Below are positions 28,069-63,769 of a stretch of DNA of 64,000 nucleotides, in pieces. A program made the position numbers and the translations under genes. The notes below the pieces were generated by a model. The model ran no database searches, was not told the DNA's origin, and was given only the letters and a program-made list of their open reading frames with translations. The first letter of the stretch is position 1. Each line of letters opens with the position of its first letter. Source of the DNA: Lachnospiraceae bacterium (GTDB lineage Bacteria; Bacillota; Clostridia; Lachnospirales; Lachnospiraceae); contig JAAUZT010000010.1 in NCBI GenBank assembly GCA_014804485.1, forward strand, positions 35,964 to 99,963, read 5' to 3'.

Positions 28069-28126
28069 TCTTCTATATCCTTCCATGCTATTACACTGTC
28101 TCGCATTATATTAGTTTTCATTTTTC

Positions 28127-44935: not shown

Positions 44936-46963
44936 TCATGATTCCACAAAATGAACCACATTCTCCTTCTTCGCCAAGAGTTTCCCTGGCACCTTCGGAT
45001 AGCCAAGCGCCACCGCCGCCCACACAATATGCTGCGTCGGCACCTGATAGCTATTTAATAGTTCTCGGATCTCCAGCTCATCACACAGTGTCATAAGCGG
45101 ATTCAACCAGACTGAACCAAGCCCGTAAGATTGTGCCGCCAGCATCATATTCTCCGCCGCACAGGAAGCATCTTGTATCCCGTCTTTATTTCTGCGGTCA
45201 TTGGAGACCAGAATCAGTATCTGCGGATTTTCAAACCCATAGAAATGTACCTTCCTCTCTTCCGCCTTGGCACGCGTGATCTCCTTTAACTCTTTTATCT
45301 TATCCTGCGACTTTAATACGGTAAATCTCCAAGTCTGCATATTATGACCTGAGGGTGCATAGTAACCAGTCTTAATGATCATATCCAGAATCCTATTATC
45401 AATAGGCTGATCAGTAAATTCCCTCACGCTTCGCCTTGCAAGCAGGTTGCAGATTATCGGGTTCATCAAGTCAACACTGCCACGTTCTTCATACATTCTA
45501 TGCAGCGCTTTGCGATCCAGTTTCTGCATTTTATTCCGCGGCAGTTCATCCACCTGAATAAACTCTTGCGGTAGCTTATACTTTTCCATACGGTTCGCCA
45601 AGTATTTTAGCAGAGCACCCTCATCAGCCATCCCGTTCTCCACCACCACATACAGCACTGGCACCTGCCCAACTATCCCTTCCGGATCATCCACACCGAT
45701 ACACGCGCATTCTTTGATCTCGTCATATTCCTGCGCTATGTTCTCCACTTCTATGGGAGAAACCTTTTCTCCGCCAACATTGATGATATCATCGGCTCGT
45801 CCCAACATGAACACAAAGCCGTCTTCATCTATATAAATCAGATCATTAGTATATAGCCAGTCATCCCGAATTGTCTCATCCGTTAATACCGGCTCATTCC
45901 AGTATCCTTCCATCCGCATCCTACCATGTAAAAGCATTCTTCCAGCAGTATCCATATCTTTGGCAGCCACCTCATTGCCATCCAAACCAACTGCCTTTAC
46001 TTCAATTCCTTCCAATGGTCTGCCGATAGATGCCAGTTTATCGGGATGGTTTGTGATGTCAAGGAAAACTGCGCCGCCTGTCTCCGTTGACCCCCATGTA
46101 TTAAATAACTGCGTATCTGGCAACAACCTAAGCAATTTCTTTTTCATATCCACGCTCACAGATCCGGCACCAAACTCTATATACCGCAACTGTCCGATCA
46201 CAGGTGCAAAATGCTCCTGCATCTGCCTGTATATCACCTCCATGGAAGCCGGCACGCAAACCATAGCCGTACAGTGATGTAGCCCTATATTTGTCTCTAT
46301 CTCCTTCGCAAACGTAAAACCACTCTGCAGTACAATCGTTGCCCCCAGATACAGAGTTGAGCGCAATACACGCATACCGAAAGAATGATTAAGCGGTAGT
46401 GGATTTAATACAATATCATCCCCGCGCATACGTATTCCATTGCAGGTATTCAGCATATTTGCGTAAATACATCTATAGCTCAGCATAGCGCCTTTCGGCT
46501 TTCCCGTCGTACCCGTGGTGAAAATCAGTTCGCAAAGTTGCCCCTCCTCCGGTTCAGCATAGTCAATATACTCCTGTTCCTGTACAGACTCTTTATAAAG
46601 CTGTTTAAGAGAAACCGTCCTAATCTCCTCTGGCAATTTCTTGCCGTCTGCCAAAAAAATATCCGCCTGCGTCATTTCCCATATGTCCTGAATATTTTCC
46701 GGTTTCGCAAATTTGTCAATGCCTACCGTAACAGCCCCAATGTACTGAATCGATAAAAGCCCCGCGATATATTCCGGCTTGGAAACGGCGTTGAGCATCA
46801 CCCTGTGCCCTTTCCCAATTCCCATTTCATGGAGAAGGGTCGCCATCCCTATAATCCGTTTCTTGAGTTCCCCGTAGGTTACTGTTACATTCTTAAAACA
46901 GACAGCTTTTTTCTCCGGCTGGGTATCCCCATATTCCAATATCTTCCCTACCAATGTTTCCAT
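44936..46963 (-). CDS. AMP-forming acyl ligase fused to a nitroreductase
   Basis: A 675-residue fusion. Residues 1 to about 510 are an ANL-superfamily ligase: P-loop LIFTTGTTGKPKGAM, FNTWGSTETGG (A5), YTNDLIYIDEDGFVFMLGR (A7/A8), and the catalytic Lys of MQKLDRKAL (A10). It would activate a carboxylate with ATP and load it onto the carrier protein encoded just upstream. Residues about 520-675 are a nitroreductase-fold flavoenzyme with intact FMN contacts (LARRSVREF, APSGHNMQTW, YGLGSVW). The flavin part may oxidise or reduce the tethered acyl group, as nitroreductase-fold oxidases do in peptide biosynthesis; that is inference. The ATG at 46963 has GGGAG six bases away. The paralogous ligase at 60980-62455 lacks the flavin domain. 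Confidence 0.9.
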   Translation of the reverse strand: METLVGKILEYGDTQPEKKAVCFKNVTVTYGELKKRIIGMATLLHEMGIGKGHRVMLNAVSKPEYIAGLLSIQYIGAVTVGIDKFAKPENIQDIWEMTQADIFLADGKKLPEEIRTVSLKQLYKESVQEQEYIDYAEPEEGQLCELIFTTGTTGKPKGAMLSYRCIYANMLNTCNGIRMRGDDIVLNPLPLNHSFGMRVLRSTLYLGATIVLQSGFTFAKEIETNIGLHHCTAMVCVPASMEVIYRQMQEHFAPVIGQLRYIEFGAGSVSVDMKKKLLRLLPDTQLFNTWGSTETGGAVFLDITNHPDKLASIGRPLEGIEVKAVGLDGNEVAAKDMDTAGRMLLHGRMRMEGYWNEPVLTDETIRDDWLYTNDLIYIDEDGFVFMLGRADDIINVGGEKVSPIEVENIAQEYDEIKECACIGVDDPEGIVGQVPVLYVVVENGMADEGALLKYLANRMEKYKLPQEFIQVDELPRNKMQKLDRKALHRMYEERGSVDLMNPIICNLLARRSVREFTDQPIDNRILDMIIKTGYYAPSGHNMQTWRFTVLKSQDKIKELKEITRAKAEERKVHFYGFENPQILILVSNDRRNKDGIQDASCAAENMMLAAQSYGLGSVWLNPLMTLCDELEIRELLNSYQVPTQHIVWAAVALGYPKVPGKLLAKKENVVHFVES

Positions 46964-47052
46964 CTTCGTCTCCCATATATACAAATACCCGTCCTATTTT
47001 CCCACGCTGTTTTCAGTTTATAATGCATTCGCCTCCAAGATATCATCTTGTA

Positions 47053-47280
47053 TCACGCCTGCAACCGTTGAACCATCGCCACCATCGCATCAATAGAATT
47101 AAAATTCTCAGGCATGATTTCCTCATAAGGAATATCAATTCCATACTCCATGCTGAGCGTGCTAATCACAGAAACGATTGTCAAAGAATCCAAAATACCG
47201 TCATCCACCAATTCATCAGATGCGGTAAAATCAATCTCCGGGTTCTCTGTTGCTAATAATTGTAATAATTCTTCTCTCAT
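47053..47280 (-). CDS. Acyl/peptidyl carrier protein
   Basis: A 75-residue carrier protein. The phosphopantetheine site is Ser in VDDGILDSLTIVSVI (about residue 32), flanked by acidic helices, as in DltC and polyketide carrier proteins. It lies between a GNAT-like transferase (89 bp upstream) and the ligase-nitroreductase fusion (89 bp downstream). The three make a complete load-hold-transfer set. A ribosome site (GAGAAGAG) precedes the ATG. A second carrier of the same type is at 60741-60980. Confidence 0.9.
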   Translation of the reverse strand: MREELLQLLATENPEIDFTASDELVDDGILDSLTIVSVISTLSMEYGIDIPYEEIMPENFNSIDAMVAMVQRLQA

Positions 47281-47369
47281 CTGCTCAACTCTTCTCTTTC
47301 TTCAGTCACTCTCACTAAATCTCCACTAAATATCAACTACCGCAATACCATAACTCCTCTACATATTTA

Positions 47370-48395
47370 TCATAGATTTGGCCTATCCTGGTCTCCGTCC
47401 GCCTTACAAAACAAGACTCCGTCTACCGGATAGTGCACCCAAATATCTACATTTCTCTGTTCAAAAGGATGGAAGTAATTTGGTATGATATTTGCATCAT
47501 CGTCTTTCCTTAGTGTAAACCCTGCCTCATAAATATAGCGTTCTTCAAATCCCATACAATAAAAATCAATATATTCATACTGCTCTTTCATCGAGTCAAA
47601 GAAACTGCCCAAACACCCAAAGCAACTCTGTTCTCCTACATAATCCACAATTCTCAGCGCCTTGCGGTCATCTACAGTCTCTTCCCGAAATACGATAATC
47701 GCCTTAGATCTTCCTTCTGTTGAGATTCCATAAACCTTATATTCATATATAGGATGTTCAAAAAAACGTCTTCTTATATAGTTTTTATCTTTGTAGGGTA
47801 TGCTATCCTTATTCAGCAACTCTGTATAATTTTCATCAAATGCTTTAAAATCATTTATTTCTTGAATTTCAACCGACAGCTCCGCAGCAGATCCGTTGAC
47901 AGCAGCACTTTTCGGAAGATATTCAATGCAGGCAATATGAAAATCCTGCTTTTTACAAAGCCTGTAAAAATGCTTCATCTTACCGGCCTTACGATTTGGC
48001 AGAATCTTCATAATTGAAATTGTTGTTTTAGGATTTGCGCCAATTCCAAGTTTATATCGAACCATTTCTTCCAATCGTATAGACAATTCCAATCCCAGCA
48101 ACGGAATATTTCCTTCCTTAACCTTCCATATGCTTCCCCATATATCCATACATTCTTCGTCATGTGATGCCTTAAGATATCCCAGAATCCCTTCCAGCGT
48201 ATCTTGCTGTCTGTCGATTGCCAAAATGAAATTTACACTGCCATTCGGTTCCAGAAACTCATACTCAAAAAAAGAACGGTTGACTGCTAAAATATGTCCT
48301 TTTTTCCAATAGGCATCAATAAATGCCATGATCTGTGCAATATCATCCTTTGCTGCCAGGCGGATTACATATTTTTCATCATATTTAATATTCAA
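47370..48395 (-). CDS. GNAT-like acyltransferase of the ligase-carrier module
   Basis: A 341-residue protein with a GNAT-like N-terminal half (YVIRLAAKDDIAQIMAFI, then AIDRQQDTLEGILGYLKA) and a C-terminal half that ends NVDIWVHYPVDG...ADGDQDRPNL. The protein at 57187-58179 matches it along the whole length, including the YKDK-Y-I-x-R-x-F-x-H-P-x-Y motif, the I-D-F-Y-C-x-G motif, the ANIIPNYFHPFE-type end and the DQDRP tail. Both lie beside a carrier protein and an AMP ligase, so it probably transfers the carrier-bound acyl group to an amino sugar. The TTG at 48395 is chosen because GGAGG lies six bases upstream and it matches the paralog's start; an in-frame ATG at 48467 has no ribosome site. 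Confidence 0.75.
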   Translation of the reverse strand: MNIKYDEKYVIRLAAKDDIAQIMAFIDAYWKKGHILAVNRSFFEYEFLEPNGSVNFILAIDRQQDTLEGILGYLKASHDEECMDIWGSIWKVKEGNIPLLGLELSIRLEEMVRYKLGIGANPKTTISIMKILPNRKAGKMKHFYRLCKKQDFHIACIEYLPKSAAVNGSAAELSVEIQEINDFKAFDENYTELLNKDSIPYKDKNYIRRRFFEHPIYEYKVYGISTEGRSKAIIVFREETVDDRKALRIVDYVGEQSCFGCLGSFFDSMKEQYEYIDFYCMGFEERYIYEAGFTLRKDDDANIIPNYFHPFEQRNVDIWVHYPVDGVLFCKADGDQDRPNL

Positions 48396-48467
48396 GGCAG
48401 ACCTCCATCCTGCACCCAGATCGTCGGCCACATGTCTATCCATGACGATCATATTCCGGCCAATCAT

Positions 48468-49592
48468 TTAGCCACTGATTTTAAGCAGCACGTCAATGAT
48501 CCGTTCTTGGTCCCCCTCAGTTAAATACGCCGAAAACGGGATTGAAAATGTTCTGTCCGCATAGTCAACAGTATTTTCAAAAGTTTCATCACCCATAAAG
48601 CAGTCTGCAAATACTTTCATGCGGTGCATGGGGTTAGGATAATAAACAATTGTCGGAATGCCTTCTTCCTGCAATTTAGCCCGCACCTCATCCCGATGTG
48701 TCTGATCTTCTGCCAGAAGTGCATACTGCGCATAGGAAGATACCGTATTTTCACTAATAAAGGGAATCACAAACTTATCCTTCAATGCCTCATCATATCG
48801 TGCGGCAATCTCCTGTCTTCTTGCTATCTCTTCATCTAAGACTGCCAGTTTGGGAAGCATGACTGCCGCCTGCAGGGTATCTAATCTGGCGTTCATTCCG
48901 ACCCTGACATTATCATACTTACTGCTTCCCTTTCCGTGGACACGCAAAGACTTAAGCAGATCCCTCATTTCCTCACTATCGGTAAATACTGCACCACCGT
49001 CCCCGTAACACCCCAAAGGTTTCGACGGGAAAAAGGACGTTGCCCCGATGTCTCCCAGCGATCCGCACTTTCTACCCTTATAGGAAGCTCCCGTTCCCTG
49101 CGCCGCATCCTCGATCAATAAAAGCTCGTATTTGTCTGTAATCTCGCGCAATCTGTCATAATCTGCCGGGTTCCCGATAAAATCCACTGCTACCACAGCT
49201 TTCGGCTTCAGTGCCCCTTTAGCTATAACAGCCTTGATCTGTCTTTCCAGGCTATCCGGGCTGATATTGTAGGTATCTTTATCAATATCACAGAAAACAG
49301 GTTCCGCCCCCAACATAAATGCCGGTTCCACCGATGCCACAAAGGTCATGTCGGGGCAGAAGACCGCATCTCCTCTGCCGATTCCGTGTGCCATGTAGAT
49401 CAACTGCAGCGCATCCGTTCCGCTGGAACATCCTATCGCATACTTAATGCCCACATACGCAGCAAGTTTCTCCTCAAACTCTTCGACTTGTTTCCCTATA
49501 ATAAAGTTGGTGTCTTCCAACACTCTGTTTATGTTTTGATCGATCTCACTCTTTAATGCATGATACTGTGCCTTTAAATCAATAAACTCCAT
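48468..49592 (-). CDS. wlbC: UDP-2-acetamido-3-oxo-glucuronate aminotransferase, WlbC/WbpE-like
   Basis: A 374-residue DegT/DnrJ/EryC1 PLP aminotransferase. It starts MEFIDLKAQYHALKSEI, which is typical of WbpE/WlbC, and has the PLP Lys in SFFPSKPLGCYGDGGA, VEDAAQG-like IEDAAQGTGASYKG, and VRVGMNARLDTLQAAV. It would convert the 3-keto-uronate made by WlbA to the 3-amino sugar using glutamate. It follows wlbA and wlbB in the same direction, completing the set. A use in the legionaminate route (LegC step) is possible but less likely given this context. GGAGG is six bases before the ATG at 49592. Confidence 0.88.
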   Translation of the reverse strand: MEFIDLKAQYHALKSEIDQNINRVLEDTNFIIGKQVEEFEEKLAAYVGIKYAIGCSSGTDALQLIYMAHGIGRGDAVFCPDMTFVASVEPAFMLGAEPVFCDIDKDTYNISPDSLERQIKAVIAKGALKPKAVVAVDFIGNPADYDRLREITDKYELLLIEDAAQGTGASYKGRKCGSLGDIGATSFFPSKPLGCYGDGGAVFTDSEEMRDLLKSLRVHGKGSSKYDNVRVGMNARLDTLQAAVMLPKLAVLDEEIARRQEIAARYDEALKDKFVIPFISENTVSSYAQYALLAEDQTHRDEVRAKLQEEGIPTIVYYPNPMHRMKVFADCFMGDETFENTVDYADRTFSIPFSAYLTEGDQERIIDVLLKISG

Positions 49593-49653
49593 ACTGTTCC
49601 TCCACTGCACATATTTCAGACGCATCACACTTTTCTGCTTCCGCGAAAGTATA

Positions 49654-52585: not shown

Positions 52586-54067
52586 CTATCTTGAACAGTC
52601 TGAATTGCTGACATCACATGGCGTGGTCGTACTGCGGTCATTCATAATCAGGTCAATCTCTCGTTTCATATTCTCCAGAGCGTTTTCCTTCCAGAAATTA
52701 CTTTTCTGCTCTGTTGCTGAAGCATCGGATAATATCAACTGATACAGATCCTGGGCAGAATCAAAAAATTTTGCTATCCCCATCTCACACAGCTCAGCCA
52801 CTGCAGGATACGCCCCTTCCCGCATGATATAAGTCCTCAGATTAAATTCAAGGCCTTCAAAAGTTGCCGTTGACCCGTATCCGCCGATCTGATATGTGGA
52901 TGCCGCAAACAACTCATACAGATCAACTTTATTATTATCAATCACCTCTATGCCGGAAGCCGCCAGCTTCACATACCTCTCCTTCCACCTCTCATACTCA
53001 CCGGGATGCAATTTATATACGATCCTGTATTGCGATTCATCTATCAGTTCATTCAACTCTGTCGCGATCTCCGACATCATTTCTCCAATCTTGGGCTGGG
53101 AGATGAAAATGATCTGATAAGGATATCTTTTGTCCGTTTTCTTTTTGGCTTCTTTCGCTCTCTCACATAAATGAGGGAACCCGATCTCCTTAAGCCTGTC
53201 CTGCGGAAGTGGAATACGCGCCATACTCAGCCAATATCCAGAAAAGGCGAAAAAATATTGCGGAAACTGTTTAACCTGTGTACCGGGATAATAATTATAT
53301 GCCACGTGAGTTTTTCCTGCCGCTCCATGCTGTAATTCTACCGTCGGAATATGCCGCTCTGCTGCCAGCTCATTAACGATCATGCAGTCAATGTTATATC
53401 CCACCACTTCCAGAATAATATGAGGGTTGACGCAATCTAGTATTTTGCCAAATTCTTTTCGTTTCGTTTGATATACGTAATATCCGCACACCATTTTATC
53501 AAGAACTGATTCAATATTATACTCAACATGATAAGCTCTGCTGATCTCATCTATCGGCTTACAGATCTTATCACGCAAAGTTTTTCTAATCCCGACAACC
53601 TGCTCCTTATGCAAGAACTGCCAGCAATACCAATGTAGCATTGTTTTTATTTCGATCAGATCCGTATACACAAGATTTTCTGTTTTCACAGGTCTGAAAT
53701 GCTTTTGAAAATAGGGTCTCTCCAAGACAATACTGTCAGGATATTCCGCTGCGATCCTGTCCGTATAAATACATTCATAACAATCTCCCGACCATACTCT
53801 GCGCTCCGCATTCAAGATCAATACACTATGCTTTCCTCTCGGAAGTCTGCTAAACAGCAGTGCATATTTTACAGTGCCCAGCCTTGCCTTCGCCTGCTGC
53901 CATTTAGAGCGTATCGGATATACATACAATGCTCCTCCCGAATCCAGCTTATTCATGATCTCTCTCTCTACAACGTGTCGAAAATACGTCCAATATGCAA
54001 ACCCGTTAATTTTGTCTTGGATCAGTCCGTATTTATGTTCAATTTTCAAAAAAGGTTCCAAATCCAT
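52586..54067 (-). CDS. Capsule/teichoic-type GT-B transferase
   Basis: A 493-residue soluble protein with C-terminal GT-B features found in capsule sialyl-, glycerophospho- and polysaccharide transferases: VELQHGAAGKTHVAYNY, a YFFAFSGYW segment, YRIVYKLHPGEYERW with the conserved H-P, and a QIGGYGSTATFEGL loop. The N-terminal half is not recognised. It lies directly downstream of a clear promoter and of the neuC-neuA genes, so it is a candidate CMP-nonulosonate transferase. The gene at 36967-38472 is similarly built. Function is inferred from fold-level motifs only. Confidence 0.68.
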   Translation of the reverse strand: MDLEPFLKIEHKYGLIQDKINGFAYWTYFRHVVEREIMNKLDSGGALYVYPIRSKWQQAKARLGTVKYALLFSRLPRGKHSVLILNAERRVWSGDCYECIYTDRIAAEYPDSIVLERPYFQKHFRPVKTENLVYTDLIEIKTMLHWYCWQFLHKEQVVGIRKTLRDKICKPIDEISRAYHVEYNIESVLDKMVCGYYVYQTKRKEFGKILDCVNPHIILEVVGYNIDCMIVNELAAERHIPTVELQHGAAGKTHVAYNYYPGTQVKQFPQYFFAFSGYWLSMARIPLPQDRLKEIGFPHLCERAKEAKKKTDKRYPYQIIFISQPKIGEMMSEIATELNELIDESQYRIVYKLHPGEYERWKERYVKLAASGIEVIDNNKVDLYELFAASTYQIGGYGSTATFEGLEFNLRTYIMREGAYPAVAELCEMGIAKFFDSAQDLYQLILSDASATEQKSNFWKENALENMKREIDLIMNDRSTTTPCDVSNSDCSR

Positions 54068-54193: not shown

Positions 54194-54886
54194 TTAAGTT
54201 AATCTTTTCGACAATATATATTCCGCCAGCATAAAATCGTACTCCGTGTCAATATCGACAGAGCTCGCAGACGACATCTTGTAGGCGTAGCAACCTTGAT
54301 CATAGGGACTTTCCATTTCCCAAAGATAGGATTCCTTCAAAATATATAACGCTCCGTTAATTCGATAATAAACAGGCAGCAACTGGCTCGGTGTGGAAGC
54401 GATTTCTCCGGATATAAAACCATCCATCCGACAATCTTCCTGTAATGTATTGGAATAAAGAGGTGAATGCTCCATTTCACATACACTGACTACTGCGTTC
54501 GCCCCCATACGGTCAAACAGTTCATATCCCTGTCTGATATCTTCCGCCGTTCTCAGCGGCGACGTCGGCTGTAAGACACATACACTTGCGAAGCTCTCCT
54601 CCAAGGATCTGTAACCGTCCAAAACCTCTTTTACTAAATCCCACGTACTCGCCATATCTGAAGAATTTTCCTCTTGTCTCAGAAAAGGAACCTCCGCACC
54701 ATATTCGCGTGCAATTGCGGCGTATTTCTCCGAATCGGTCGATACCATGATTCGATCAAACACACCGCTATCTATCGCCGCAATAACTGAATATGCTAAA
54801 AGAGGCTTATCCCGTAAGTCTTTGATATTTTTGTTTTTAAGCCTTTTAGAACCGCTTCTCGCCGGTATAATCGCCAAATTTTTCAT
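54194..54886 (-). CDS. neuA: CMP-nonulosonate cytidylyltransferase (NeuA family)
   Basis: Activates a sialic-acid-like sugar with CTP. The 230-residue enzyme carries the full NeuA motif series: LAIIPARSGSKRLKNKN, MVSTDSEKYAAIAREYGA, VCVLQPTSPLRTAEDI, INGALYI, and SSVDIDTEYDFMLAE. It is cytoplasmic, of normal length, with GGGAG before the ATG. Together with neuC 47 bp upstream and the neuB at 62738 it completes one nonulosonic acid route. It differs from the NeuA half of the fusion at 40963-42597 in the substrate loops, which suggests another substrate. Confidence 0.93.
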   Translation of the reverse strand: MKNLAIIPARSGSKRLKNKNIKDLRDKPLLAYSVIAAIDSGVFDRIMVSTDSEKYAAIAREYGAEVPFLRQEENSSDMASTWDLVKEVLDGYRSLEESFASVCVLQPTSPLRTAEDIRQGYELFDRMGANAVVSVCEMEHSPLYSNTLQEDCRMDGFISGEIASTPSQLLPVYYRINGALYILKESYLWEMESPYDQGCYAYKMSSASSVDIDTEYDFMLAEYILSKRLT

Positions 54887-54933: not shown

Positions 54934-56121
54934 TCAGATATCAAACTCGATATTATAAAATTTCTTTTTCAAATCAATCTCTGCCCCATCTTCTTCAATC
55001 AGATATTCCTTGATCCGACTGACAATACTCTCGGAGGGCTTTGCACCCGACTGTTTGCGCAACAGAATATCTTTTGCTATCTTTCCCCGAAATTCTACTG
55101 TCTCCACTTTTTTCATCGCTTCCTTGATCGCTACGGTATCAGGAGCACAGTTTACAATACTGACGGCCTGCACTCTTCCCCTCTGCCTGTCTCCGATATT
55201 GACCGTGGGAACTCCCAGCGCCGGCGCCTCCAGAATCCCGCTGGAAGAGTTTCCTATTACCATAGAACAATACTTCATGGCTGACAGATAGCGGATCATT
55301 CCCAACGACTCCGTCAAAAATATCCTCTCTCTTCTTTTCTCAGCGAATTTCTCCAGACACTCGTTAATCATTCTGCCTCCGGCATCCACATTGGCCTTCG
55401 TGATCAGATAACGATACTCTGTCATCTCGTCCATCACCCGTAGCAATTCATTTATCTGTTTAATCCCACTGCCTTCCTCCAGTGTCACCGGATGAAACGT
55501 GACCAAACAATACTTTTCTCCCAAGCTAAACTGTATCGCTTCCTCCAATTCTGACTTCTCCAACAGTTTCTGGCTAAGAATGTTTTCAACTCCTAATGCC
55601 CCCACGCAAAACACTCTGTCCGGATCTTCTCCCAACTGGATAACCCTCTTACGATATACCTCTGTGCTTGTAAAATGAAGAAAACTCATCTTTGTAATGC
55701 CATGCCTGATGGCATCATCAATGGCGCCTTCCGTCACTTCCCCGCCATGAATATGTGCAATTGGTATCTGCGCATTCATGGCCGCAATACAGACCGCCAT
55801 CGTCTCATAACGATCACCCAGAACAACGAGCATGTCCTGCTTGTTTTCAGCAAAAAAATGCCCGAACCTTACAAGGGCTTCCGCCATCGTTTCGGACATT
55901 CCAACCGCACCGTCTTCTTTAGATATAATAGGAATCTTAGCCATAATCGTGATTCCGTCTGCCTCAATCTCACGATAGGTTTCTCCAAATTCCTTCTCCA
56001 GGTGCATGCCGGTAACAATAACATTCACATGCAATGCAGATTCTTCGCGCAGCTTTAATATAACATTCTTCAGCAATCCGTACTCAGCTCTCGTTGCTGT
56101 CAGCACACATATCTCTTTCAT
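54934..56121 (-). CDS. neuC: UDP-GlcNAc 2-epimerase (hydrolysing), NeuC/LegG family (second copy)
   Basis: A 395-residue GT-B-fold hydrolysing 2-epimerase giving ManNAc or 2,4-diacetamido-2,4,6-trideoxymannose. Motifs: CVLTATRAEYGLLKNVI, LGDRYETMAVCIAAMN, HIHGGEVTEGAIDDAIRH, LVTFHPVTLEEGSG, VIGNSSSGILEAPALG and INIGDRQRGR-like NIGDRQRGRVQA. It follows the polysaccharide deacetylase by 2 bp and precedes neuA. It is diverged from the NeuC at 26920-28068 (GEV versus GEI loops and C-terminal parts), consistent with a different precursor. Confidence 0.92.
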   Translation of the reverse strand: MKEICVLTATRAEYGLLKNVILKLREESALHVNVIVTGMHLEKEFGETYREIEADGITIMAKIPIISKEDGAVGMSETMAEALVRFGHFFAENKQDMLVVLGDRYETMAVCIAAMNAQIPIAHIHGGEVTEGAIDDAIRHGITKMSFLHFTSTEVYRKRVIQLGEDPDRVFCVGALGVENILSQKLLEKSELEEAIQFSLGEKYCLVTFHPVTLEEGSGIKQINELLRVMDEMTEYRYLITKANVDAGGRMINECLEKFAEKRRERIFLTESLGMIRYLSAMKYCSMVIGNSSSGILEAPALGVPTVNIGDRQRGRVQAVSIVNCAPDTVAIKEAMKKVETVEFRGKIAKDILLRKQSGAKPSESIVSRIKEYLIEEDGAEIDLKKKFYNIEFDI

Positions 56122-56123
56122 TT

Positions 56124-57077
56124 CTATTTATTATTTCCTCTATAGTTTTCACTTTTAGGCGGAAAATCATTGCAATCAAACCTCGGAAGCAGATAACGAT
56201 CCTCAATTGCCAAATCCACAGCCCGAACCTCCGTTGTCATTCCCATCCTACAGCCTCTCTGCTGAATATATTCCACCACATCTTTATTATGACTTCCATA
56301 GGGATAATTCATCACCCACCCATTAGTGTCTATAAATTCATCCATAACATCCAATGCTTTGGAAATATCTTTCTGCATCTGCTGTCGCGTTAAATTACCC
56401 AGCCAATAATGATCATACCCGTGTATGCCGATGTGCATACCATGCCGCTTCATAGTGCAGATCTGTTCCCGCGACATATACAGTTCATACGCCAATACTT
56501 CCTCCGATACCCCTACATAGCGTTCAAACAGATCACTGGAAATAAGGTTTCTAGCCCGCTCCGGCAAAGCCGTCTGAAGCATACGTTTAACAAAAATCGT
56601 TTCCTTCGAATCAAACCGATTTGCAACCGCATACTCCTCAAAAAGCTCCTCGTTAGACGGATAGTCGTACTCCCGCCCACGATAGAAATTCATTCTCTCA
56701 AATACATCCGGCAAAAGTCTTCTGATATCTGCCGCAGCAAGAATGTAATGAATTTTATTGACATCGAGGAGGCTGTGCATATCGAAAGTCTTGCCCGGTA
56801 TAAAGAAAGAACCCTGCACCTCCTCTTCTTCGAGCACAGGCATAACATAAGTAAAATTATCGATATATCCGTCATCAAATGTCAGAAGAACCGAATTCTC
56901 AGGAAGCATAATCTGCCCATCGAGAGCCGCCAATACCTCTTCCGCCCGTACTACAGAAAAATTAGCTTTCAAAAAGGCGATCTGTTGCCGAAACAACTCT
57001 ATATCCATTCCTTTAATATTCGGATATCTGCTGTGTTTCAAATCCCGAACATAGTGATACATAACAATATAGAGCAT
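56124..57077 (-). CDS. Polysaccharide deacetylase (NodB domain)
   Basis: A 317-residue metal-dependent carbohydrate esterase family 4 protein that removes N-acetyl groups. It has the general-base motif SVLLTFDDGYIDNFTYV, the metal His pair in HIGIHGYDHY, and MNYPYGSHN (motif 3). No signal peptide is seen, so it probably acts in the cytoplasm on a nucleotide-sugar or lipid-linked intermediate rather than on cell-wall glycan. An N-deacetylated sugar would give the free amine that the adjacent acyltransferase system could acylate. It has a consensus promoter and AGGAGG upstream of its ATG. Confidence 0.88.
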   Translation of the reverse strand: MLYIVMYHYVRDLKHSRYPNIKGMDIELFRQQIAFLKANFSVVRAEEVLAALDGQIMLPENSVLLTFDDGYIDNFTYVMPVLEEEEVQGSFFIPGKTFDMHSLLDVNKIHYILAAADIRRLLPDVFERMNFYRGREYDYPSNEELFEEYAVANRFDSKETIFVKRMLQTALPERARNLISSDLFERYVGVSEEVLAYELYMSREQICTMKRHGMHIGIHGYDHYWLGNLTRQQMQKDISKALDVMDEFIDTNGWVMNYPYGSHNKDVVEYIQQRGCRMGMTTEVRAVDLAIEDRYLLPRFDCNDFPPKSENYRGNNK

Positions 57078-57186: not shown

Positions 57187-58179
57187 CTAATAACTGCTTG
57201 GTCTGTCCTGATCCCCATCCCCACGGTATAAATGTAGTTTATCCAACACATTACTTACAAAATAAATATCAACATTCCTTGCCTCAAATGGTTCAAAATA
57301 ATTTGGAATAATATTAACATCATCCGATTCTCTTTTTATAAAACCAGATTGACGCATAATATCGTCTGAAATTCCATAGCAATAGAAATCAATATATTCA
57401 TATCCTCGCTCTTCCAATATACGATCCCATTCTCCCTCCAGGCCTATCAAATCTTCATCTTCACCAATATAATCAATGATTTTAGCCGCTTTTGAATGAT
57501 TAATCTCCACTTCTCGCATAATAACAAAAGATCGTCTTTCTTTATTAACTATTTCATATATTTCATATCGATAAACAGGGTGGTCAAAATACCGGTGTTT
57601 TATGTACTCTTTATCCTTATAAGGAATCTTGGTGGCCAGATATTCCTCTGTAAGATATTTAAACATATCATGAAAATCTTCTACATGTTTCAAATAATTA
57701 CCATTCTTATATCCACTACTAAATTTTTTTTCTTTTATAATAGCAATATGATATTCATCCAAATTCCTAATTCTATAATAGTGATTCATTTTCTCAACAT
57801 ACTGCCCATACATTCCCAATACTCGTCCTGATGTATTCATATTGATACCCGGAGAACACATATAACGACAATTCGTTAATTCCATCAATGAATCCCTAAT
57901 AGCTTTTCCTAACATAAAATAATTACTTGGAATAACCTTCCAAAGAGCCCCCGCAATATCCGGTGTATACATGCCATTCATAGGAATATATCCTTCTACA
58001 CCATATATTTTCCCATTCTCTTCAGCGATTATATATGTAAACATATCATTTCTATCTATATGTTGGTATTCCATAAATTCAGGTTTATTTGCCAAAATGT
58101 GATTTGAGCCCCAATACTCCCTTATAAACTCCATAACGCGTGGTATATCTTCTCTTTTTGCTAATCTAATTTCCATCAT
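57187..58179 (-). CDS. GNAT-like acyltransferase of the importer-linked module
   Basis: A 330-residue paralog of the protein at 47370-48395. It begins EIRLAKREDIPRVMEFIREY, with GNAT-like strand IIAEENGKIYGVEGYI; the C-terminal half has YKDKEYIKHRYFDHPVYRYE, YEYIDFYCYGISDDI, NIIPNYFEPFEARNVDIYF and the tail GDGDQDRPSSY. The two copies agree in the YKDK motif, the NIIPNYF motif and the terminal DQDRP. It should use the carrier-bound acyl group made by the ligase at the start of this operon. Its ATG shares a base with the stop of the ATPase gene (TAATG), and GAAGGA precedes it. A substrate with an amino sugar acceptor is inferred, not shown. Confidence 0.75.
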   Translation of the reverse strand: MMEIRLAKREDIPRVMEFIREYWGSNHILANKPEFMEYQHIDRNDMFTYIIAEENGKIYGVEGYIPMNGMYTPDIAGALWKVIPSNYFMLGKAIRDSLMELTNCRYMCSPGINMNTSGRVLGMYGQYVEKMNHYYRIRNLDEYHIAIIKEKKFSSGYKNGNYLKHVEDFHDMFKYLTEEYLATKIPYKDKEYIKHRYFDHPVYRYEIYEIVNKERRSFVIMREVEINHSKAAKIIDYIGEDEDLIGLEGEWDRILEERGYEYIDFYCYGISDDIMRQSGFIKRESDDVNIIPNYFEPFEARNVDIYFVSNVLDKLHLYRGDGDQDRPSSY

Positions 58180-58955
58180 TATCCTTCTTCTTGATTTGTT
58201 TGGTTATTAAGCTGCTCCATAATAATAGACATCATTTTCATCTTATCCACACTACTTCCGGTTGCGATATATGTGTTATCTAATGTAAACCCAATCTCAC
58301 CCGGATTAGCTTTCATAATAACAATTCGGTCACCGATCAATACCGCTTCCTCCACTCCATGTGTAACAAAAACAACAGAAATATCATATTTCAGGCATTT
58401 TTCTCTTACTAATTTCTGCAAATTATGTCTTGTAACCATATCCAGACTAGCAAACGGCTCATCCATAAGCAAAATTTTCGGTTTTAATGCTAATGCCCTT
58501 GCCACGGCAGCACGCTGTTTCATTCCACCAGATAACTGCCGCGGATACCTATTTCTATATTCGTAGAGACCAACTTCTTTTAATACAGCCTCCGCCTCTA
58601 AAACAGCACTTTTTCGATCCAAAGCAGTTTTAGTTATTAAAAGCGCATGTACAATATTTAACAAAATGGATTTCCAGGGAAAAAGTTGATTAAAATCCTG
58701 AAAAAGAAGTAATACATCTTTTGAGGGAGTACAATAATTACTATTATCGACTAAAATATTACCTTCATCAGGTTTTTCCAGTGCCGACATAATTCTTAAC
58801 AGAGTAGTCTTCCCACACCCAGAATATCCCAAAATACAAAGTACAGATTTTTTCATTACTTCCAGTGAGATATCTTGGATAACTTTCTGTGTGCCTTCAC
58901 TTGTTTGAAATGATTTGCTTATATGATCTACTCTAAGTATAATATCCTCCGTCAA
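58179..58955 (-). CDS. ABC importer ATPase, SsuB/TauB type
   Basis: A 258-residue ABC ATPase with Walker A ILGYSGCGKTTLLRI, Q-loop LFQDFNQLFPWKS, signature QLSGGMKQRAAVARAL, Walker B KILLMDEPFASLD, and H-loop VFVTHGVEEAV. The F-P-W-K stretch after the Q-loop is characteristic of the nitrate/sulfonate/taurine subfamily. It pairs with the permease and lipoprotein just upstream. A TTG start at 58955 is preferred because its TTGA overlaps the permease stop and GGGGAGG lies nine bases upstream; ATGs at 58973 and 58988 are alternatives without ribosome sites. Confidence 0.9.
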   Translation of the reverse strand: MTEDIILRVDHISKSFQTSEGTQKVIQDISLEVMKKSVLCILGYSGCGKTTLLRIMSALEKPDEGNILVDNSNYCTPSKDVLLLFQDFNQLFPWKSILLNIVHALLITKTALDRKSAVLEAEAVLKEVGLYEYRNRYPRQLSGGMKQRAAVARALALKPKILLMDEPFASLDMVTRHNLQKLVREKCLKYDISVVFVTHGVEEAVLIGDRIVIMKANPGEIGFTLDNTYIATGSSVDKMKMMSIIMEQLNNQTNQEEG

Positions 58956-59746
58956 TTGCCTGCCCCTCCCCATTTTTCTACCGTACATTTTTCTATTAGT
59001 CGGAACAAAAAGGCTTCTACTATTACACCTATGATAATAATCATTAACACCCCTACTAAAACATTCGTTATATTTGCATATGCACGGTTTACATAAATAT
59101 AATATCCCACTCCTCCAAGGGACCCTATCATTCCAAAGACCATTTCCGCACTAATTAACGCACGCCATGCCCTGCCCCAACCAATCCTTAATCCTGAAAT
59201 AACATAGGGCATCACCGAAAAAACATATATATCTTTGAAAATTCGAAACGGAGTCATTCCAATATTAAGAGCCCACTCTCTATAAACTTGCGGGACTGTA
59301 CGAAAGCCTGTCAGCAAATTTGTCACTAAAGGCCATAGCACCCCATGTACTATTAATGCAAGCATAGCTCCATTTCCTACCCCAAACCACATCATAATTA
59401 ATGGTAGTATCGCCATTCCGGGGAGTGGATTCAATAATGTACACAATGTCATAAAAAAACTTTCAAATACCTTTGAATATACACAACATAATGTAACCAT
59501 AATTGCAATGATAAAACTGATGATAAATCCAAGCAGCACCACGTAAAGTGAATTTAAAATCTGAAAAAAAAGTTTTCCCCTAGACAATTCATAAAACATC
59601 TGACTTACTACTTTGGAACATGGGGGTAAAATATAATCATTCACCAGGCCTAACCGCGACGCAAATTCCCAAATACACAAAATAAGAATGGTCCATAAAA
59701 ATGTCTGTCTTGATTTTGATTCCTTTAATTTATTCATCTTTTTCAC
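58952..59746 (-). CDS. ABC importer permease, SsuC/TauC type
   Basis: A 264-residue integral membrane permease with about six hydrophobic segments. The cytoplasmic EAA-like loop (YREWALNIGMTPFRIFKDI, then GRAWRALISAEMV) matches BPD_transp_1 proteins of the SsuC/TauC/NrtB group. It would form the pore for the substrate delivered by the lipoprotein upstream. The first codon is GTG at 59746; an ATG at 59737 is an alternative, and neither has a strong ribosome site, so coupling to the lipoprotein gene is likely. It is within an operon of only a few base pairs between genes. Confidence 0.9.
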   Translation of the reverse strand: MKKMNKLKESKSRQTFLWTILILCIWEFASRLGLVNDYILPPCSKVVSQMFYELSRGKLFFQILNSLYVVLLGFIISFIIAIMVTLCCVYSKVFESFFMTLCTLLNPLPGMAILPLIMMWFGVGNGAMLALIVHGVLWPLVTNLLTGFRTVPQVYREWALNIGMTPFRIFKDIYVFSVMPYVISGLRIGWGRAWRALISAEMVFGMIGSLGGVGYYIYVNRAYANITNVLVGVLMIIIIGVIVEAFLFRLIEKCTVEKWGGAGN

Positions 59747-59749
59747 TTT

Positions 59750-60715
59750 CTATTTCGGTATATTATCATAATTAGGAAGATTCTCAAATTTTGTAGGTTC
59801 TTTTGTAAGTATACCGGCCTCATATAAAAGTTCCGCCTGTTTATCATAACCTACAACTTCTTTCCTTGGCGGCATTCCTGCTAATACTCTGCTTACCTCT
59901 TCTTCCTCTACTCCGTACAATGACGCTAATATTTGAGCTGTCTCCTCCGCATGATCAGAAATAAATTGTAGAGTTTCATTTTGCGCAGCCAGAAAGGCAT
60001 CAATGATATCCTTATTTTCTTCTATATAATCAGAATGTGTTACAAACCCGTCTCCAATGCTATAATCCGTTATTACATCTGTCATATCCGCTATTAATTT
60101 CAAATTTTCGTTTTCCTCTGCCTTTACCATCATAGGGAACGAAAAAACTGCACCATTATAGTCGCTTGATGTCTGTAATGATGCAATTGCATCCGCCGCC
60201 GGTATTGGAGAAAGACAATCATCATATTTCATTGCGTCTCCGGAATACTCCTTACAATAAGCCAAAAATGCTATATGTAAATTTGTGCTCTTATTCGTTA
60301 TAGCAATGCTGGAAGTACTGGAAAAGTCATCTATCACCTCAATATCGCTGGAATTACTGTAAATATTGATCGGTGTAGAGCCGGAAAAGGAAAGTAATGT
60401 TAATGGAAGCCCATTTTCATACGCCGCTATATATGTCATTAAAGAAAAATCTGCAATATCTACATTTCTTGAAATTATAGCCTCCCTTAAATCCGGTCCG
60501 GTAGCTATTTGACTCCACTCAATCTCCACATCCGCTGGCAAATATTTCTCAAGTATTGCTTTTTCCTTCATAATCTGCGCTGTCGCCGAAACATATACCC
60601 CTGTCTGCGCTATTCGCACTACACGTTTTTGTCCCTCCCCACTGCCACATGCAACAAGGCCAAAAACCAAGCTTAATAACACTAAAATTGCTGTAACTTT
60701 TCTCATTACCGACAT
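59750..60715 (-). CDS. ABC importer substrate-binding lipoprotein, NMT1/SsuA type
   Basis: A 321-residue lipoprotein with a lipobox ending LVFGLVAC (lipid-modified Cys near residue 23), then a periplasmic-binding-protein-like fold (RIAQTGVYVSATAQIMKEK, GPDLREAIISRNVDIADFSL, LLSFSGSTPINIYSNSSDI) typical of the NMT1/SsuA/TauA group. These bind sulfonates, taurine, nitrate, thiamine precursors or aromatic acids. Its placement between a carrier-protein gene and a transferase gene suggests that the imported molecule is the substrate of the ligase. The ATG at 60715 has GAGGAG eight bases upstream. Confidence 0.9.
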   Translation of the reverse strand: MSVMRKVTAILVLLSLVFGLVACGSGEGQKRVVRIAQTGVYVSATAQIMKEKAILEKYLPADVEIEWSQIATGPDLREAIISRNVDIADFSLMTYIAAYENGLPLTLLSFSGSTPINIYSNSSDIEVIDDFSSTSSIAITNKSTNLHIAFLAYCKEYSGDAMKYDDCLSPIPAADAIASLQTSSDYNGAVFSFPMMVKAEENENLKLIADMTDVITDYSIGDGFVTHSDYIEENKDIIDAFLAAQNETLQFISDHAEETAQILASLYGVEEEEVSRVLAGMPPRKEVVGYDKQAELLYEAGILTKEPTKFENLPNYDNIPK

Positions 60716-60740
60716 TTTCAATTCTCCTCGATTATATCAT

Positions 60741-60980
60741 TTATTCATTTTTAATTTGCTTAATCATTTCCAAAAGTGTTTCTACCGTTTCAAAATTCTC
60801 CTGCTTTAAACAAGTTCCGGCAATTTTTATATCAAATTCTTTCTCCAACAACGTGACTAACGTAATAATATCTAAAGAATCTAATAATCCCTGATTTAGT
60901 ACCGTAGTTTTATTTACATTTTGTAATGTAGGCTTTATCTGATTAATTATTCCAATAATTTCTTCAATCTCTCTATTCAT
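60741..60980 (-). CDS. Acyl/aminoacyl carrier protein, DltC-like
   Basis: A 79-residue carrier protein. The phosphopantetheine Ser is in NQGLLDSLDIITLV (about residue 35), followed by an acidic helix and EFDIKIAGTCLKQENFETVE, the layout of DltC-type carriers. Its ATG shares a base with the ligase stop (TAATG), with GAGGGG upstream, so the two proteins are co-translated and probably act as partners. The importer lipoprotein follows by 25 bp. Confidence 0.9.
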   Translation of the reverse strand: MNREIEEIIGIINQIKPTLQNVNKTTVLNQGLLDSLDIITLVTLLEKEFDIKIAGTCLKQENFETVETLLEMIKQIKNE

Positions 60981-62455
60981 TATTTCACCCCTCGTAATTC
61001 TTTTCTTAATATTTTTCCATTATAGGCTCGTGGAAGCACATCCAATTCCTCTACTAATTTCGGTACTTTAAAAAACTCAAGTCTTTCCGTCAAATACGTC
61101 ATAATCTCCTGACGACTAAACACTTCTCCTCTCTTCATTACTACATATAGTTTGGGAATTTGTCCCACAACCTGATCCTCAACCGGAACACATACACACT
61201 CAGCTATTTTCTCATTTTTTAACATAATTTCTTCAATTTCAAGTGGTGCTATTTTATTGCCGCCACTATTTATTACATCATCCTTCCTTCCCAATAGATA
61301 TATATTTCCATCTTCTCCCCGATATCCAATATCATTTGTATAAATCTTACCATCTCGCAAAATTTTCTTGGTCAGTTCAGGTTCCTGCCAATATCCTTTC
61401 ATGTTCATAGGTCCCTCAAACACCATACACCCTAGATGCTCTCTTGTTGCATCTATTACTGTCCCAACCTCATCAACAAAACTTACTGTTGTATTTACAG
61501 TTGGTCGTCCAATACAAAACATCTTATCATGATCTTGACTAAAGTCAAAAATGCAGGTACACCCTGCTTCCGTTGCTCCATAAGTATTATACAATCTTAC
61601 ATCTGGTAATAATCTTCTTAATTCATTTCTTTCAGTTTCCGTAATCGGTGCTGATCCCAGTTGGATAAATCGCAGTTGTTTATTAAGTTCACCCAATTTT
61701 TCTCCAGAAAACTTTAACAATATTGACAGCATTGCCGGCACTAATGTAATTGCAGTCATCCGATACTTTTTTAACATGTCAAAAAAATCTTCCGCATAAA
61801 TTACACCATCAATAATGCCGATTGTACTTCCCCGATACATAGCGCCATAATATCTGCGTAATCCCAAAGAATGGTTGATCGGTGTCGGAATCAGTTCAAT
61901 ATCGTCTTCCAGTAAATTCACACTATCAATAACATTCTCTGCAATCGCTTTATTTGTCAAATGTGTAACTTCTATACCTTTGGGTTCCCCTGTCGTACCT
62001 GTTGTAAAAAGAATGTCTGCAAGACTTCCCTGTTCAGGAAATCTGTGTACTTGCTCTTGTACTTCTTTATCCAAATAAATTCCACTTTCACTAATATCTA
62101 ACAGATTAATATCTTTGACTGAAATATTCATTCTCCCGATTAACCATACAGATTTCATTCTTAACATAAGTTCAGAAATCCGCACATCAGACAGATTCTT
62201 TTCTAATGGTATTACAACTGCTCCTATCAAATGAAGAGCCGAAACTGCAATCAAAAAGAAAGATGTCTGTTCAGCCGCTATTGCCACTCTTGTACCTGTC
62301 TGAATTCCCTTGGACATCAACAAAGAGGCATATCCATTGATTGCATTCCAATGCTGCCTATATGTGATCACGCAATTTCGTTCTAAAATACATTCCTTAT
62401 CAGGATGTTCTTCTGACATCTTCTGTATATGTTGCAAAATAATTCTTTCTTCCAT
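60980..62455 (-). CDS. AMP-forming acyl/aminoacyl ligase
   Basis: A 491-residue ANL-superfamily ligase. Motifs: ILFTTGTTGEPKGIEV (A3), LYNTYGATEAGCTCIF (A5), YTNDIGYRGEDGNIYLLGRKDD (A7/A8 split around residue 390), and the catalytic Lys in YNGKILRKEL (A10). It activates a carboxylate with ATP and should load it on the carrier gene that overlaps its end. It is a paralog of the ligase half at 44936-46963, with matching INHSLGLR/LNHSFGMR and GSTETG/GATEAG blocks. The substrate-binding lipoprotein and importer follow in the same operon. ATG 62455 is chosen for its GAGGAAA site; the frame is open for seven more codons. Confidence 0.9.
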   Translation of the reverse strand: MEERIILQHIQKMSEEHPDKECILERNCVITYRQHWNAINGYASLLMSKGIQTGTRVAIAAEQTSFFLIAVSALHLIGAVVIPLEKNLSDVRISELMLRMKSVWLIGRMNISVKDINLLDISESGIYLDKEVQEQVHRFPEQGSLADILFTTGTTGEPKGIEVTHLTNKAIAENVIDSVNLLEDDIELIPTPINHSLGLRRYYGAMYRGSTIGIIDGVIYAEDFFDMLKKYRMTAITLVPAMLSILLKFSGEKLGELNKQLRFIQLGSAPITETERNELRRLLPDVRLYNTYGATEAGCTCIFDFSQDHDKMFCIGRPTVNTTVSFVDEVGTVIDATREHLGCMVFEGPMNMKGYWQEPELTKKILRDGKIYTNDIGYRGEDGNIYLLGRKDDVINSGGNKIAPLEIEEIMLKNEKIAECVCVPVEDQVVGQIPKLYVVMKRGEVFSRQEIMTYLTERLEFFKVPKLVEELDVLPRAYNGKILRKELRGVK

Positions 62456-62719
62456 GATTTCCTCTTTCATAACCAAAATCTACAATGTAATTTATCAAAT
62501 TATTACGCTTTGTCTCTTGATGTACTACAATGTCCCTTTACCTAATTGTCATAAGGTAATCCATGCCACTCCACTTGTAGTCAATGACTTTATTAAAAAT
62601 GTCTACTGCCATAGATATATTCTATCACATTAATTGATGCAGAAATTCCCAGACCACTGGTAATCACGTGAATTCCAAGGTGCATTATACTCCGTCAGAG
62701 TTAAATTTGACTATCCTTG

Positions 62720-62748
62720 ATTGTATCAAATTTTAAACTATATCGCAA
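62720..62748 (-). promoter_or_regulatory. Sigma-A promoter of the ligase-carrier-importer operon
   Basis: TTGCGA (62743-62748), 17-nt spacer, TACAAT (62720-62725) on the minus strand, lying over the last codons of neuB. Predicted start near 62713 leaves an untranslated leader of about 258 nt before the ATG at 62455. This 282-bp gap holds no recognisable gene, only a 24-residue open frame without a ribosome site and a weak ACTC/GAGT hairpin. Confidence 0.65.
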
Positions 62749-63769
62749 GCCAATTCACGTTCACGCAATAATGGCTGATCATCTCATCCGGCTCATAATC
62801 CTTGTCCGCCTTCAATCCGATCACATGATTCCACTGCATAGGCGAAATCCCGGTACCCGGCCGCTTTGCAGTCAGATTCGCCTCCGTAAACACTTCACCC
62901 TTTCGGATATTCGTCTTGGCCACAATACTCTTTCTTGCCACATCCCGGTTCTTTATTTCCGAAGCGGATGGTCTCTTGATTCCGTCCCCCAGCGCAACCT
63001 CTGTATTACGGATCGCCTGCACCATCGCCCGCAGTTCCTCCGGCTCTAAGCTCGCCTTGTGATCCGGCCCTTCCATATTGCGATCCAGCGTAAAATGTTT
63101 CTCGATCACCACCGCCCCCATGGCTGCGGCAGCAATCGGCACTTCAATGCCCTGTGTATGATCTGAGTAACCTACGGGCAACCTAAGTTCTTCCCTCAAA
63201 GTACACATAGCTCTCAGGTTCACATCCTGCATAGGTGTCGGATACTCCGTATTACAATGCAGCAGGGTAATCTCGCTGCTTCCGTTTTCCTTTAACACCC
63301 GAACCGCATCCTTCACTTCCTGCAGTTCACACATCCCGGTGGACATGATGACCGGTTTACCGGTTCGGGCGATCTCTCGCAGATAAGGATAATTCGTAAT
63401 TTCTCCGGAAGGAACTTTCATGATAGAGATTCCACATTCCACCAGCATTCTGATGCTATCTGTATCAAAGGGCGTGGACAGAAACATAATTCCCTTTGCC
63501 TTACAATAATCTATAAGTTCCCGGTGCACCACTTCCGTCAATTCCAGTTTCTTTAGCATTTCATACTGTGACTCTGACTTGTCCGCTGCATTGTTCTGCT
63601 GATATGCCGCTTTCTGAGCATCTTTTCGCACGAGACTGTCCGCTTTAAAAGTCTGAAATTTAACGGCATCTGCCCCTGCCTCTGCGGCTGCATCGATCAT
63701 TTTTCTGGCGATTTCGGGGCTGCCGTTATGATTTACCCCCGCCTCTGCTATCACAAATATCTTACTCAT
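62738..63769 (-). CDS. neuB: Nonulosonic acid synthase, NeuB/LegI family (third copy)
   Basis: A 343-residue PEP-dependent synthase with canonical motifs throughout: VIAEAGVNHNGSPEIARKMI, ADAVKFQTFKAD, VGYSDHTQGIEV, IEKHFTLDRNMEGPDHKASL, and the SAF domain with AKRPGTGISP near residue 305. It is the most typical of the three NeuB copies and pairs with the NeuD-like acetyltransferase gene upstream, whose stop overlaps its ATG by four bases (ATGA). The neuC and neuA needed for a complete route lie at 54934-56121 and 54194-54886, beyond the inserted importer operon. Confidence 0.93.
   Translation of the reverse strand: MSKIFVIAEAGVNHNGSPEIARKMIDAAAEAGADAVKFQTFKADSLVRKDAQKAAYQQNNAADKSESQYEMLKKLELTEVVHRELIDYCKAKGIMFLSTPFDTDSIRMLVECGISIMKVPSGEITNYPYLREIARTGKPVIMSTGMCELQEVKDAVRVLKENGSSEITLLHCNTEYPTPMQDVNLRAMCTLREELRLPVGYSDHTQGIEVPIAAAAMGAVVIEKHFTLDRNMEGPDHKASLEPEELRAMVQAIRNTEVALGDGIKRPSASEIKNRDVARKSIVAKTNIRKGEVFTEANLTAKRPGTGISPMQWNHVIGLKADKDYEPDEMISHYCVNVNWLAI

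Follow-up and report, generated by a model that had tools for sequence, protein, structure and literature searches.

What role does an importer of the sulfonate type play among genes for acyl activation and transfer? The question is raised by a 64,000-nucleotide stretch of a Lachnospiraceae genome (assembly GCA_014804485.1, contig JAAUZT010000010.1, positions 35,964 to 99,963 of the forward strand; hereafter the window). It carries an AMP-forming ligase of the ANL superfamily, a DltC-like carrier protein, a substrate-binding lipoprotein (SBP), the permease and ATPase of an ATP-binding cassette (ABC) importer, and a tandem-GNAT transferase. The initial annotation had described these six genes as one set, and they turned out to be real and tightly packed. 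It had also placed a single promoter at 62720-62748, but candidate sites there are no commoner than expected by chance and we dropped the promoter as supporting evidence. The set sits inside a sialic-acid-type operon: NeuB precedes it, and a cytosolic deacetylase, NeuC and NeuA follow.

We consider it somewhat probable that the products of these genes exchange N-acyl groups on a surface glycan of the sialic-acid type, with an importer as the supply. An exogenous carboxylic acid would enter through the lipoprotein, permease and ATPase, and the ligase would adenylate it and load it onto the phosphopantetheine of the carrier. The deacetylase would strip the N-acetyl group from a sugar of the NeuB/C/A pathway or its precursor, and the tandem-GNAT protein would then move the carrier-bound acyl group onto the freed amine. 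It is the deacetylase that turns the six-gene set into an acyl exchange. What is established of this scheme is the gene content, the folds, the recurrence of the linkage and the co-variation. From the protein families we infer the individual steps, namely that the importer ligand would be the ligase substrate, that the GNAT protein would use the acyl-carrier and that the acceptor would be a Neu-type sugar.

Linkage of importer and ligase in other genomes

An evenly drawn sample of the order (246 genomes) contained 18 genomes with the importer family, at E up to 1e-50, and six with the ligase subfamily, at E up to 1e-110. The first pass scored at most eight importer and six ligase candidates per genome, and detection was eased by query profiles containing the same or near-identical sequences as those recovered. 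Both occur in four genomes (G110, G199, G229 and the window's own, G000), at one locus each and no more than 4.4 kb apart (Fisher p 0.0003; 0.003 without G000). The remaining two ligase genomes, G075 and G188, have no family importer in the genome or in the 1.5-kb flanks. Each of the 18 family importers has a carboxylate-activating ligase no more than 5 kb away, of the ANL type in four cases and of the ATP-grasp type in 14. For comparison, the 1.5-kb flanks of 12 other SBPs from the order contain no full ligase; one of them (L026) has a 174-residue, 37-bit match.

Relatives of the window ligase were collected by scanning a single genome of each species with two patterns, both general ANL motifs, followed by confirmation with the window ligase; the best 80 of at least 469 confirmed sequences were taken. 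Three of the four rows of the scan alignment came from importer-linked loci that had been found through the SBP (one, L053, being the same genome region as L114), and a possible bias towards importers was considered. The ligases were ranked by their highest score against any of the query ligases, which include an importer-linked one. A lack of co-occurrence of importer and ligase elsewhere had been named beforehand as one finding that would refute the proposal, and the proposal was not refuted: with neighbourhood thresholds set by hand, an SBP and permease of the importer family lie near 33 of the 80 ligases, 32 of these with the ATPase as well. The SBP is 11 to 4895 bases from the ligase in these 33 loci. 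Of the 45 loci whose flanks reach 6 kb or more in each direction, 19 have SBP and permease. Two loci with an SBP only, at contig ends (L092 and L124), and two whose importers lie beyond 5 kb (L118 and L080) are not counted in the 33. A carrier is near 58 of all 80 ligases, an MBOAT protein near 45 and a GNAT protein near four.

SBP and ligase are on the same strand in only 19 of the 33 linked loci, so the gene order has been shuffled while the linkage was kept or regained. The sequence distances of the partners also co-vary. The Mantel correlation of ligase and SBP distances is 0.85 (n = 35, 2000 permutations, p 0.0005), and the other pairs give 0.82 (ligase-permease), 0.93 (SBP-permease), 0.69 (ligase-carrier) and 0.75 (ligase-MBOAT); L072 was dropped from all of these sets and L118 from those with the SBP. 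The chain from importer through ligase, carrier and transferase to an amino sugar, as initially annotated, is thus partly supported, with the ligand, the ligase substrate and the transfer itself still as predictions. Its genomic support comes from the recurrent linkage, the co-varying distances, the same importer family standing beside a different carboxylate ligase, and the NeuB/C/A and deacetylase context.

A number of observations weigh against this reading. For about half of the ligases no importer lies nearby, and the number of linked importers falls with rank (12, 11, 8 and 2 per successive 20). Of the 45 loci with neither SBP and permease nor a contig-end SBP, 32 were covered by a genome-wide SBP search and 13 were left out. 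Eight of the 32 genomes have a strong family SBP (E up to 1e-120), about 8.8 kb from the ligase in L118, about 11 kb in L080 and on other contigs in six; of the 24 without a strong SBP, seven have weaker ones only and 17 none at E 1e-10. In sum, a family importer is present somewhere in the genome for 43 of the 80 ligases, with 24 searched without finding one and the 13 left out of the search. The importer label switches 18 times along the ligase tree, hence gain or loss of the importer must be common. L106 (9983-11479, no importer) and L107 (9989-14134, importer after the ligase) have near-identical neighbourhoods, and the genome-wide SBP search found no strong copy in the L106 genome; the difference is a recent gain or loss of the importer. 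Shared descent may account in part for the correlated distances. Most linked SBPs share only 18-26% identity with that of the window, whose ligand may therefore differ from theirs. Neither acyltransferase is present at nine of the 33 linked loci, three of which (L103, L107 and L109) have flanks of no less than 6 kb each. Family importers also exist away from any ligase that we saw, and none was found with the window proteins as queries at the ten GNAT loci described below. Both the ligase and the SBP tree are quick searches with long-branch warnings.

Six family importers (L173-L176, L178 and L179) are on contigs other than that of the genome's ligase. LysR-like neighbours were recognised by eye in L175, L178 and L179, and in L175 also by NCBIfam, below cutoffs. 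L177, drawn as unlinked in the SBP tree, is the importer of L080 and shares a 44,942-base contig with the ligase.

The importer family and the proposed acid substrate

The window SBP has the fold of its class and comes with permease and ATPase, but scores below the cutoff of the curated aliphatic sulfonate family (65.8 against 163.5 bits). In the SBP tree, ANL-linked, ATP-grasp-linked and unlinked importers form one cluster of 60 rows, set apart from the 12 other SBPs with support 93. The window SBP groups with L072, L172 and L052; its nearest relative after L072 is L172, whose importer adjoins an ATP-grasp and a DegT gene. The 14 ATP-grasp loci of the order sample (L065-L071 and L199-L205) share a DegT transaminase, a GT2 glycosyltransferase, the ATP-grasp ligase, SBP, permease and a PMT-like membrane protein, as labelled by homology to L068. 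A LysR gene is present at 13 of them (L199 is a 5.9-kb contig), and an adjoining ATPase was seen in L068 alone. Pfam matches DegT, GT2, ATP-grasp and LysR in L068, with PMT below cutoff only, and its DegT protein, the one tested, passes the cutoff for dTDP-4-amino-4,6-dideoxygalactose (dTDP-Fuc4N) transaminase. A role in biotin synthesis was considered for the SBP group of L065-L071 and rejected, the neighbours in L068 being a transaminase, a GT2 and an ATP-grasp protein.

The element common to the ANL and ATP-grasp loci is carboxylate activation. The carboxylic acid itself is the simplest ligand to suit both an ANL ligase with carrier and GNAT or MBOAT and an ATP-grasp ligase with an amino sugar, and this leads to the scheme of import, adenylation, carrier loading, deacetylation and re-acylation. 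We find it evenly balanced whether there is a wider class of such importers, mostly in Firmicutes of gut and rumen, dedicated to acids from the environment (diet, host or neighbours) for surface-glycan decoration. As part of the same reading, the class would serve three interchangeable modules of activation and transfer: sialic-acid-type sugars would be decorated by ligase, carrier and GNAT, surface polymers by ligase, carrier and MBOAT, and dTDP-amino sugars by ATP-grasp.

The window ligase has the AMP-binding and C-terminal domains of the ANL superfamily and the C-terminal Lys488, present in 83 of 84 aligned ligases, which we take to be the catalytic lysine. Its Ser203 aligns with the Asp of FDIS in a gramicidin synthetase domain. 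This Asp is presumably the 235-like site of the specificity code, which binds the amine in amino-acid-activating domains (the amino group of D-Ala in Dlt). The window ligase thus lacks the Dlt-type Asp at this site, which speaks against an alpha-amino acid, and the sequence leans towards a non-amino acid substrate. Arg207, in the same pocket segment, is nearly invariant (80 of 84). As a marker of importer-linked ligases it failed, as it is present in 37 of 38 linked and 43 of 46 unlinked ones and so marks the subfamily; our guess is that it might accommodate a second acidic or polar group of the substrate. The carrier has a PP-binding domain with the attachment serine and matches a hidden Markov model of 55 sister carriers (4.5e-25). 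All 55 retain this serine, and in 13 the preceding residue is other than Asp. Adenylation of the imported acid and loading of this carrier is the role that we propose for the ligase.

In the ligase tree, GNAT-linked ligases are scattered among the MBOAT-linked ones (the window with L072, L092 nearby, L123 and L150). The only NCBIfam match of the one MBOAT protein tested (L054) is LTA_dltB, below cutoff. Its partner was called DltD-like by eye from one N-terminal membrane segment and GSS and D..H motifs (L078, L090 and L111), and Pfam gave nothing useful for it. No open reading frame of the window matches two sister MBOAT proteins. In L052 (9607-19915), the genes after the importer-ligase set encode B12-type and SPASM radical SAM proteins, a carrier and a fusion of cytidylyltransferase and RraA, perhaps a sign of a modified acyl group.

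The proposed acyl transfer, its sugar context and alternative explanations

The tandem-GNAT protein matches no Pfam or NCBIfam family. It contains two GNAT domains in one chain and shares its fold with NMT and Eis, at 7-12% identity. Its relatives at ten loci of other genomes (L055-L064, with L063 and L064 near copies) lie beside a carrier in nine cases, a ligase in eight, a deacetylase in three (one weak) and NeuB in one. That one, L062, has NeuB, NeuC, NeuA, deacetylase, GNAT, carrier and ligase, with the importer alone missing. L123 and L150 each have all of these and the importer; the part on the opposite strand is the GNAT gene in L123 and the importer in L150. As the two stand apart on the ligase tree, GNAT, deacetylase and NeuABC have apparently joined the importer-ligase-carrier set anew in each.

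In the window, NeuB and NeuC exceed their NCBIfam cutoffs and NeuA is assigned by Pfam (Table 1). The deacetylase lies between the GNAT gene and NeuC, 2 bases from the latter; its hydropathy shows no hydrophobic segment, and its TFDDG and HGYDH motifs were recognised by eye. A second set (44936-49628), about 9 kb from the first and without an importer, comprises a ligase-nitroreductase fusion, a carrier, a GNAT protein and a DegT transaminase. The nitroreductase domain may oxidise the carrier-bound acyl group ahead of transfer.

Table 1. Genes of the two putative acyl-transfer sets and of the surrounding operon (window positions)
Feature	Position	Strand	Support
NeuB, nonulosonate (N-acetylneuraminate-type) synthase	62738..63769	-	TIGR03569 517.6 bits, cutoff 399.65
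ANL (AMP-forming) ligase	60980..62476	-	PF00501 7.7e-55, PF13193 1.3e-12
Acyl/DltC-like carrier protein, attachment serine in LLDSLD	60741..60980	-	PF00550 22.7 bits, cutoff 20.8
SsuA/NMT1-type substrate-binding lipoprotein (SBP)	59750..60721	-	SBP fold
ABC importer permease, SsuC-like	58952..59746	-	PF00528 3.1e-15
ABC importer ATPase, SsuB-like	58179..58988	-	PF00005 6e-30
Tandem-GNAT acyltransferase, putative carrier-dependent N-acyltransferase	57187..58179	-	NMT/Eis fold
Polysaccharide (NodB-type) deacetylase, proposed sugar-amine liberation	56124..57077	-	PF01522 1.5e-23
NeuC, UDP-GlcNAc 2-epimerase (hydrolysing type)	54934..56121	-	TIGR03568 444 bits, cutoff 235.9
NeuA-like CMP-nonulosonate synthetase	54194..54886	-	PF02348 3.6e-26 (CTP_transf_3)
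Second GNAT, same family, 39% identical to first	47370..48467	-	place G000:C10:83339-84328
Second carrier protein, ILDSL	47053..47280	-	HMM of sister carriers 6.4e-32
Second ANL ligase, 34% identical, fused to nitroreductase domain	44936..46984	-	PF00501 5.5e-59, PF00881 1.2e-24

If the acid is indeed imported for transfer, the acceptor could still be another amino sugar of the locus, with NeuB/C/A merely contributing to the same glycan. The second set with its transaminase would fit such an arrangement, as would the lack of NeuB at nine of the ten GNAT loci. We regard it as unlikely, however, since the complete combination of NeuB, NeuC, NeuA, deacetylase, GNAT, carrier and ligase recurs in L062, L123, L150 and the window. 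The importer might also be a passenger, i.e. an SsuABC nutrient transporter for a sulfonate or a thiamin precursor that happens to lie in the operon, while the ligase uses an endogenous substrate. The fold of the SBP and its kinship to sulfonate and taurine binders agree with this, and so do the importers away from ligases and the many ligases without one nearby. But a passenger would hardly stay linked in 33 of 80 loci through shuffled gene orders, with distances that follow those of the ligase, nor would every family importer of the order sample be found close to a carboxylate ligase of one of two unrelated types. We therefore hold this to be distinctly unlikely.

An import of the acceptor amine, such as taurine, to be acylated by ligase, carrier and GNAT with an endogenous acid, seems to us very improbable. 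The SBP is SsuA/TauA-like and GNAT enzymes do form amides. A DltB-like MBOAT is present, however, in 21 of the 33 linked sets; enzymes of this type act on surface polymers, and no use for an imported amine is apparent there. The DegT enzyme of the ATP-grasp sets would itself produce the amine. Import of the acyl donor for a sialic-acid-type sugar thus remains our preferred explanation.

The window holds three NeuB-family synthases (28127-29167, 38485-39522 and 62738-63769) and NeuC-like proteins at 26920-28086 and 54934-56121; the three synthases probably make more than one nonulosonic acid. After NeuA, a 493-residue protein (52586-54067) without any Pfam, NCBIfam or PDB sequence match is, judged by its place only, a candidate for a novel type of glycosyltransferase.

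Implications and comparison with known systems

The acyl groups of glycans are usually thought to derive from the cell's own metabolism. Each component of the set is already known, and the new element is an importer feeding glycan acylation, of which we found no description in a narrow search of open-licence PubMed Central papers, a weak kind of absence. If a dedicated importer does supply them, the surface chemistry of gut bacteria would depend on, report on and vary with the small acids of their surroundings, and this could affect immune recognition, phage binding and peptide resistance. Many unassigned SsuABC-like importers would gain a testable role, and there is a route to the ligand, as ligase, binding protein and glycan must agree on one molecule.

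Compared to the SsuABC and TauABC sulfonate importers, the window importer falls below the family cutoffs and is tied to acyl-activating enzymes. The Dlt operon (DltA ligase, DltC carrier, DltB MBOAT and DltD) likewise combines an ANL ligase, a separate carrier and an acyltransferase, and the sister loci even have a DltB-like MBOAT; the window differs in its GNAT in place of MBOAT, in the Ser at the Asp235-like site and in the importer. The ATP-grasp sets resemble the enterobacterial Arn system in DegT, GT2 and the weakly PMT-like membrane protein, but add the ATP-grasp ligase and the importer, and their transaminase is of the dTDP-Fuc4N type. In Vibrio cholerae O1, a ligase, a carrier and a transferase acylate the amino sugar perosamine with tetronate, an acid that the cell makes itself and for which no importer is part of the system. 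In the synthesis of Nod factors, NodB deacetylates, NodF carries the acyl chain and NodA N-acylates the freed amine. The window parallels this logic, and only the logic, with a deacetylase of the same Pfam domain, a carrier and a putative N-acyltransferase of the GNAT fold; its acyl group, however, would come from an imported acid and a ligase rather than from fatty acid synthesis, and would be placed in a sialic-acid context.

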